Shown: piece after piece, positions 54,672 to 57,066 of the stretch
Layout: every line of letters starts with the position of its first letter
Position numbering within the stretch: position 1 is the stretch's first letter
Assembly (NCBI RefSeq): GCF_003010915.2
Contig: NZ_CP028426.1
Span: forward strand, 1,674,001 to 1,738,000
Direction: 5' to 3'
DNA length: 64,000 bases
Source: Gulosibacter molinativorax
GTDB taxonomy: Bacteria; Actinomycetota; Actinomycetes; Actinomycetales; Microbacteriaceae
Position numbers and translations under genes: made by a program
Notes under the pieces: model-generated
The model's database searches: none
What the model was told of the DNA's origin: nothing
Seen by the model: the letters and a program-made list of their open reading frames with translations, nothing else

Positions 54672-54750
54672 TCGATTCGCGGCTTCGCCGCTACTCAAGG
54701 TGCGATAGGCGGCTTCGCGGCCCCTCAAGGAACGATACGCGGCCATTCCA
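54672..54750. repeat. REP-like repeat cluster
   Basis: Copies of the same family as at 53.5 kb: 54672-54700 (TCGATTCGCGGCTTCGCCGC, then TACTCAAGG), 54702-54730 (GCGATAGGCGGCTTCGCGGC, then CCCTCAAGG) and a fragment from 54731. Here they are in tandem orientation. Confidence 0.7.
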
Positions 54751-54838: not shown

Positions 54839-54973
54839 CTAGTTGCAGGTGCCGTCCGCCGAGCAGCTTGCGACCGTCGACGGGTCGAGCGTGCCGAAAA
54901 TGGAGCCGAGGACGTCGCCAGCGTTGACCAGCGTCACCGGCTCAGTTGCGGTGGTTTCTTGTTCGTTAGTCAT
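54839..54973 (-). CDS. 44-residue Cys-pair peptide, coupled to the DsbA-like gene
   Basis: A 44-residue ORF starting inside the last codons of the DsbA-like gene (overlap ATGACTAA), with a strong ribosome site (AAGGA, 7 nt spacing) in the 3' end of that gene and a hairpin just after its stop. The N-terminal part is acidic and Thr/Glu-rich (MTNEQETTATEPVT), the middle is amphipathic (VLGSIFGTLDPS) and the C-terminus is Ser/Thr/Cys-rich, ending CSADGTCN with two Cys five residues apart. Leader-plus-core form suggests a modified or disulfide-closed peptide. No lanthionine, YcaO or radical-SAM enzyme is recognised nearby. Confidence 0.75.
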   Translation of the reverse strand: MTNEQETTATEPVTLVNAGDVLGSIFGTLDPSTVASCSADGTCN

Positions 54974-55658
54974 TCGTCTTTCCTTCCTCTTCGTTCATGT
55001 TGGCGAGCGTGCGGAGCGCGCTGCGGTAGGCATCGAGCGGCAGTGCGCCCGGCGCGGCGTACTGGTGGTTGAACAGCATGAACGGCACTCCGGTCACCCC
55101 GAGCTGACGGGCGCGGCCGATGTCCTGACGGACGGCTTCCTCGTGCTCGCTCGTCTCCTTGAGTGCGTCGCGAGCCTCCTCATCGGAAAGCCCGACCTTC
55201 GCGGCCTCCGCGACCAGCACATCCTCGTCGAACACGTTGATTTCGCCGGAGAAGTAGCCGCCCTGGAGCGTGCGGAAGAGCTCGTTGCCCTGGCCCTTCG
55301 TCGCCGCAGCCTGCACGAGACGGTGAATCGCGCGGGTGTTCGCCATGGGACGGTCGATCACGTAGGGCATGTCGATCTCGGCCGCGAGACCCTTGATCTG
55401 TTCCTCCATGCCGCGGACTTCGTCCTCGGAGCGACCGATCTTCTTCACGAGGTGCTGGATGTTGTCCTCGGCGCCAGCCATCGCGGGCGCGCTCGGGTCG
55501 AGCTCGAACGAGTGCGCCTGAATCTGCACGACGTCTTCGAGTCCCTCCGCCTTGATCGCTTCCTGGAGTCGAGCTTCGCCAACGTAGCACCACGGGCAGA
55601 CGACGTCCGTCCAGATGTCAACGGTGATCGGGGCGGGAGTGTTTGCCGTTTCGGCCAT
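54966..55658 (-). CDS. DsbA-family (FrnE-like) thiol oxidoreductase
   Basis: A 230-residue thioredoxin-fold DsbA-family protein: active site CPWC (C21, C24) after a first strand (VDIWTDVV), a helical insertion (about 65-170), and the cis-Pro loop GVTGVPFMLFN. It has no signal peptide, so it is probably cytoplasmic, like FrnE proteins of polyketide clusters. The ATG at 55658 is chosen since the fold starts there. It overlaps the next small ORF by 8 nt. Confidence 0.9.
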   Translation of the reverse strand: MAETANTPAPITVDIWTDVVCPWCYVGEARLQEAIKAEGLEDVVQIQAHSFELDPSAPAMAGAEDNIQHLVKKIGRSEDEVRGMEEQIKGLAAEIDMPYVIDRPMANTRAIHRLVQAAATKGQGNELFRTLQGGYFSGEINVFDEDVLVAEAAKVGLSDEEARDALKETSEHEEAVRQDIGRARQLGVTGVPFMLFNHQYAAPGALPLDAYRSALRTLANMNEEEGKTND

Positions 55659-55765
55659 GTTGCCTCGCTTGGTAGGGATGGGAGTCTGCTGAGATCTATT
55701 ACAAATCAACACGCCTCGGCTGAGATTATTCCCGCGTTCGTGCCGGAATGCGTCGCGATGACGGC

Positions 55766-56860: not shown

Positions 56861-56930
56861 GCGGACAATTATCCGCCATGATCCGGGAAAAGTCCCGGTC
56901 AGTTCCTGGGGCTCGGGGGCTCGGTTGGCT

Positions 56931-57028
56931 GGCGGCTGGCGGCTGGCGGCTGGCGGCTGGCGGCTGGCGGCTGGCGGCTGGCGGCTGGCGGCTGGCGGCT
57001 GGCGGCTGGCGGCTGGCGGCTGGCGGCT
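56931..57028. repeat. Heptanucleotide simple repeat, 14 perfect GGCGGCT copies
   Basis: Fourteen perfect tandem copies of GGCGGCT with partial copies at both ends, 70 bp upstream of the CapF-like start. On the minus strand the repeat is in an open frame continuous with capF, and 7 is not a multiple of 3, so copy-number change would shift that frame. Confidence 0.95.
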
Positions 57029-57066
57029 GGTCGACCTTGCTCGAGAGGCGCTCCGAACTCCAAACG

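Follow-up and report, generated by a model that had tools for sequence, protein, structure and literature searches.

The 44-residue protein encoded immediately behind frnE in Gulosibacter molinativorax is very probably the C-terminal redox tail of FrnE carried as a gene of its own, which would regenerate FrnE in trans during thiol stress. The gene pair and its overlap, the homology of the small proteins to fused tails, the conservation of the start codon, selection and the promoter word were observed directly.

The gene pair of the window

The window, by which we mean the whole stretch of 64,000 nucleotides that was analysed, contains the following features around the pair:

54839..54973, minus strand: ORF of the putative detached FrnE tail peptide, 44 aa, C-terminus CSADGTCN; codon of Cys37 at 54863-54865, codon of Cys43 at 54845-54847
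54966..55658, minus strand: frnE (DsbA-family) gene for a protein of 230 aa, with CPWC (Cys21/Cys24) as active site and lacking a Cys tail at the C-terminus
54966..54973, minus strand: stop/start overlap ATGACTAA, 8 nt, with the ATG of the small ORF inside the last 8 nt of frnE
54981..54988, minus strand: ribosome-binding-like word AGGAAGGA, 7 nt before the ATG of the small ORF, read by eye
55708..55733, minus strand: SigR/SigH-type promoter word GGGAAT-N17-GTT upstream of frnE, from a word search; consensus in PMC2375139
54780..54817, minus strand: hairpin after the small ORF, a possible terminator with no T run, from folding

The 44-aa ORF was confirmed, and the strong ribosome site, the 8-nt overlap and the hairpin named in the original prediction were all present as described. 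The hairpin begins 21 nt past the stop codon of the small ORF, and a 69-nt stretch gave a folding energy of -35.7 kcal/mol (z -5.9). Between the hairpin and the next downstream gene, at 54675-54735, the short word cggcttcgc.gc....ctcaagg was seen in two similar copies. Neither the peptide of the window nor eight related peptides had a Pfam or NCBIfam match above the cut-off, the one weak Pfam hit having an E-value of 0.12. Used alone as a query against 5.8 billion proteins, the peptide returned no match but itself; among 99 relatives the copy of Gulosibacter chungangensis was the only match at E <0.01 (pS 0.70 and pN 0.20 between the two over 44 codons).

The partner enzyme of 230 residues matched Pfam DSBA (PF01323) with 128.8 bits, and its best PDB sequences were drFrnE, the FrnE of Deinococcus radiodurans (E 3e-35), and, from Streptomyces coelicolor, SCO1869 (E 6e-34). 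Among the named loci compared, the closest FrnE was that of G. chungangensis, with about 80% identity. Cys21 and Cys24 of the Cys-Pro-Trp-Cys site near the N-terminus are the only cysteines of the protein, and at its N-terminus, MAETANTPAPITVDIW, no signal peptide was visible by eye. FrnE proteins are predicted to be cytoplasmic and a second CXXXXC at the C-terminus is common among them; many have such a tail, some homologues do without it, and it is not a requirement for membership, as reported in PMC8945050. The C-terminal CX4C tail is absent from the FrnE of the window itself, and the adjacent ORF carries a tail of this kind. The enzyme had been predicted to be a disulfide-forming protein of the DsbA type. 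It is indeed a thiol enzyme of the DsbA family; it belongs, however, to the FrnE type, which is described in the literature as a cytoplasmic reductase/isomerase and not as a disulfide-forming DsbA.

Split, fused and tail-less frnE loci

In a first look downstream of 13 related frnE genes, 11 were followed by a small ORF (in Gulosibacter, an Agrococcus MAG and Brachybacterium), and in these 11 the N-termini were variable and the Cys-pair end was conserved. For a wider survey we collected 236 FrnE loci, of which 222 were distinct after duplicates had been dropped; one of these was too short downstream, leaving 221 to be judged. FrnE was present in 173 of 199 genomes of the family and 64 of 296 of the phylum, and the classification covers part of those loci. 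A locus was called split when an ORF of 20-110 aa containing C-x-x-[DGE]-x(1,2)-C started between -45 and +70 nt from the frnE stop, and fused when C.{2,7}C lay within the last 45 residues of FrnE. By these rules 142 loci were split, 33 fused and 46 neither, and a single fused locus had a motif ORF as well. The motif ORF was thus found near the frnE stop at 142 of the 188 loci without a fused tail, compared with 69 of 3760 shuffled downstream sequences and 2 of 188 reverse-complemented ones. This frequency is beyond chance and the small ORF is a genuine gene, as had been proposed from the window alone. A looser rule, C.{3,6}C, which gave 154 split, 33 fused and 35 neither (n=222), was dropped because it admitted chance ORFs (L074, L147, L246, L263).

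The split arrangement predominated in the Microbacteriaceae, where the 150 loci comprised 132 split, 18 neither and no fused, whereas all other loci comprised 10 split, 33 fused and 28 neither. A split locus was present in 62 of the 71 Microbacteriaceae genera sampled. Absence of the ORF beside orthologous dsbA genes of related species had been named as the finding that would speak against it, and the ORF passed this check; in the genus of the window itself five of the seven classified loci were split, and the other two (G002, G003) encode a more distant FrnE of about 37% identity. The weak matches G008 and G010 are excluded from this count, and G001 and G005 had no match. A search for the window-type pattern, CX5C-[DN]-stop, in 299 genomes of the family gave matches in 10 genomes, three of them beside frnE; the number is small because most relatives have CX4C with residues after the motif. 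A plasmid search returned nothing but FrnE of <60% identity.

The FrnE of B. subflavum (L069) has CGIDGDC at its own C-terminus and is thus a natural fusion, and five further natural fusions (P0050, P0060, P0080, P0083 and P0092) were found among the 120 database relatives listed. Both split and fused states occur in Brachybacterium, and one Brachybacterium locus (L073) has neither a fused nor a separate tail. Since 46 of the 221 loci have neither form, some FrnE proteins appear to manage without a tail, although at L017, L160 and L199, all scored as 'neither', a variant Cys-pair ORF was missed by the strict motif; L160 and L199 are two of the 18 tail-less Microbacteriaceae loci, and their variant ORF starts at -4. 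On a FastTree phylogeny of 226 FrnE cores at least 5 changes between split and fused were needed, or 22 when 'neither' was treated as a third state, from which it would follow that the tail came, went or moved repeatedly.

As a separate observation, 11 of the 18 tail-less Microbacteriaceae loci (L011, L021, L187, L197, L212, L213, L230, L239, L243, L246 and L247) lie in genomes of 2.2 Mb or less, which suggests that the tail gene was lost as genomes were streamlined. Split loci also occur in genomes of this size, in at least three cases (G076, G185, G223).

At 123 of the 142 split loci the start codon of the small ORF lies at -4 relative to the stop of frnE (ATGA, GTGA and one TTGA), and at five, the window included, it lies at -8; L032 would also be at -8 if an internal ATG is its start. 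The translational coupling to the dsbA-like gene that had been claimed for the window is thereby supported. Of the 123 loci with a -4 start, 68 have A as the closing base of the last frnE codon, compared with a share of 4.1% for A at third codon positions in these genes, an excess that we take as a sign of selection for the ATG start. Ribosome-binding-like words precede 84 of the 142 starts, against 20% in shuffled sequences. In 48 locus pairs the small ORF had a pooled dN/dS of 0.44 and frnE one of 0.16, so by this measure the small ORF is constrained, but far less than frnE.

These observations bear on the possibility that programmed ribosomal frameshifting joins the two ORFs, in which case FrnE and its tail would be made as one full-length chain. 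The ORFs do overlap and natural fusions do exist. Nevertheless, the frame of the small ORF varies between loci (as the -4 and -8 starts show), it retains a start codon, A being far more frequent at the last third position of frnE than the background would give, and ribosome-binding-like words are enriched before the starts. We therefore regard frameshifting as very unlikely, and prefer separate translation of a detached tail.

Separate peptides and fused tails

The relationship between separate and fused tails was examined with HMMER. The fused FrnE L148 aligned over its full length with SCO1869 (..PLKLIDDGGAEACGPDGCAVP) and drFrnE (..APLTMLGQDAPAEGCEDGQCAVPQR), and the separate peptide L237 contains ..PLTMVGDADAMACEGDSCVVP.. 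in turn. The consensus of the separate peptides reads ..ppLtmLGdpdAaaCeGDvCliP.. and that of the fused tails ..sPLtlvGgggdaeACGpDGCAV. A profile was built from 32 of the 33 fused tails, L145 being excluded. At 12 bits or more it recognized 70 of the 142 separate peptides and none of 2840 shuffled ones, and at 8 bits or more 98 of 142 and 5 of 2840. When the Cys motif was kept and the rest shuffled, 125 of the 142 peptides scored above the average of their own shuffles and 90 scored above every one of the 20, so the likeness exceeds the two cysteines. The peptide of the window, a divergent member with CX5C and a longer linker, scored a modest 8.6 bits, its best five motif-kept shuffles reaching 0.2 or less. 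Homology of the hydrophobic segment, linker and Cys motif of the separate peptides to fused FrnE tails is thus well supported by the profile scores, even if the likeness measured in this way is weak for a good third of them (61 of 142 below 10 bits).

The separate peptides are 26-78 aa long, contain just two cysteines in 133 of 142 cases and are net acidic in all but one. The N-terminus of the window peptide had been read as an acidic leader; acidic it is, but it is a variable linker and not a conserved leader. The small ORF might instead encode the precursor of a secreted peptide of ribosomal origin that is modified or closed by a disulfide, FrnE being the enzyme that matures it. Its shortness, acidic N-terminus, Cys pair near the C-terminus and adjoining thiol enzyme would all suit such a precursor. 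Against it stand the homology to the fused FrnE tail, the presence of at least four residues past the Cys motif in 111 of the 142 separate peptides, and a longest hydrophobic run of 10 residues, so that an export signal is not obvious. Nor did any of the seven neighbouring genes scanned encode a modifying enzyme, in agreement with what had been stated for the immediate surroundings: they comprise FMN_bind_2, HxlR, NmrA, a zinc-type dehydrogenase, epimerase/Polysacc_synt_C, a thioesterase and one without a Pfam match. The precursor reading, which the original prediction had raised, was accordingly abandoned as extremely improbable. Its alternative of a minimal peptide system or a redox-reporting peptide holds in one part, in that the Cys pair belongs with a thiol enzyme, and fails in the other, in that this is not a peptide-antibiotic system. 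Near the epimerase gene, at 56899-57063, we also noticed a short tandem-repeat array in which both strands have open frames, one repeating PPAASRQ and the other AAGGWRL head to tail.

Two variations of the C-terminus were seen among the separate peptides. A conserved extension like HHEQAVVNRRLDEDLV follows the Cys motif at 23 of the 142 split loci (among them L118, L158, L163, L169, L175, L180, L188, L195, L211, L218 and L234) and was unseen in the aligned fused tails; it may act as a signal for binding or turnover. In L093, L094, L101, L210, L236, L008 and L016, Cys-rich ends (e.g. GCCGGGSC in L093, SCCGGGCCS in L101) replace CEGDxC, and these tails are perhaps a metal-binding variant.

The small protein could also be a thiol protein that binds or delivers a metal (zinc, cadmium) beside FrnE and outside its catalytic cycle. 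The Cys-rich ends of some relatives would fit this, as would the induction of drFrnE by cadmium reported in PMC8945050. However, the two cysteines that 133 of the 142 peptides possess would by themselves form a weak metal site, and the homologous tail of drFrnE is reported to contact the active site (PMC8945050). On balance we consider a metal protein unlikely, and a redox tail acting on FrnE remains our preferred reading.

Regulation, working of the pair and related systems

A promoter of the GGAAT-N18-GTT type belongs to the SigR consensus family, as given in PMC2375139, and SigH of Corynebacterium glutamicum is reported to use the same promoter core (PMC10012870). We scanned for GGAAT-N16-19-GTT within 220 nt upstream of frnE. 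The word was present at 123 of the 141 split loci, at 13 of the 33 fused ones and at 13 of the 46 with neither form, and in less than 1% of shuffles; it was missing from all seven Brachybacterium split loci and from 20 of the 33 fused loci. In these 220 loci it occurred upstream of frnE in 149, inside frnE and downstream in none, and in the upstream antisense direction in one, and its spacing was 18 in 99 of the 149. In the group that holds L148, a close relative of SCO1869, all seven loci have it (f21). The word as such is not rare (4 in the window against 3.2 expected, 225 in the genome), so what counts as evidence is where it lies from locus to locus. Among the genes of the genome is one for a SigH_actino sigma factor, scoring above the curated cut-off, and the anti-sigma gene beside sigH matched RsrA below the cut-off (55.9 vs 62.5 bits). 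We infer from these sequences that the SigR/SigH sigma factor of disulfide stress would activate frnE and the tail gene jointly.

The pair might work as follows. Both genes would be induced jointly via SigR/SigH, and the tail peptide would be made from the frnE mRNA by coupled translation. FrnE would reduce or rearrange wrong disulfides in the cytoplasm under thiol stress; its CPWC site would become oxidised and then be regenerated via the Cys pair of the tail. For this the peptide would bind to FrnE in trans, in the way that crystals show for the tail of one drFrnE molecule and its neighbour; disulfide exchange between the two cysteines of the peptide and CPWC would then reduce oxidised FrnE. 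The electrons might come from thioredoxin reductase, as for drFrnE, or from mycothiol, as for NCgl2478. According to PMC8945050, one molecule's tail sits at the active site of another molecule in all drFrnE crystals, and a Cys244-Cys22 disulfide was seen in crystals grown with DTT; the tail cysteines were dispensable for insulin reduction with DTT and important in thioredoxin-reductase-coupled DTNB reduction. Since the tail of drFrnE is already intermolecular in crystals, freeing it need not cost function.

AlphaFold models of natural fusions had a mean pLDDT of 94 and 93, with 74-78 in the fused tail of P0060 and about 60 in that of L148; the lower values in the tail are as would be expected of a mobile arm. 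No docking site of the tail was shown by these single-chain models. In a fold search the P0060 model had SCO1869 and drFrnE as its best PDB matches, which confirms the FrnE fold and nothing further.

More tentatively, the detached tail could be a mini-redoxin that diffuses freely, an acidic dithiol protein of just 26-78 residues that would shuttle electrons between the reductants of the cell and FrnE, possibly serving other clients too, throughout an actinobacterial family; its amount relative to FrnE would be adjustable since the proteins are separate. We consider this extension possible, though rather doubtful.

If the pair does work as proposed, a catalytic module of a thiol-stress enzyme would be an overlooked microprotein in most sampled Microbacteriaceae genera, with other actinobacteria keeping the fusion. 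A profile of 20 separate peptides matched 587 proteins at the loose limit of E up to 10; the best 120 of the 587 had E 6.5e-13 or better, and those carrying names were called 'hypothetical protein'. A function would thus be proposed for a large set of such proteins. The natural two-part system would also make the intermolecular tail contact of drFrnE directly testable, and would partly explain FrnE homologues that seemingly have no regenerating Cys pair, which in the Microbacteriaceae would be encoded next door. In the open-access literature, where most subscription papers are absent, we found no description of a separate tail gene.

Among known systems, NCgl2478 of C. glutamicum and Rv2466c (of the DsbA-mycoredoxin cluster) are likewise actinobacterial thiol reductases of the DsbA family. 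NCgl2478 is SigH-dependent and mycothiol-reduced (PMC8280269), and the abstract of that paper mentions neither a tail nor a tail peptide; Rv2466c matches the P0060 model in structure, at an identity of only about 17%. SCO1869 (PDB 3gl5) is a FrnE like that of the window, but its tail, ACGPDGCAVP, is fused. The Brachybacterium-type fusions (L069, P0050, P0060, P0080, P0083 and P0092) belong to the same FrnE subgroup, with about 50% identity and a CxxDGxC tail, which is joined to the enzyme in them and separate in the window. A further comparison is with drFrnE (DR_0659; PDB 5cnw, 5co3, 5coh, 5cp1, 5xwh), which shares the DsbA fold and CPWC. Its C-terminal PLTML..C-x4-C-AVP tail, whose cysteines are reported in PMC8945050 to touch the active site of a neighbouring molecule, is homologous to the separate peptides; there it is part of the enzyme, whereas here it is encoded by a separate overlapping gene, with CX5C in the window.
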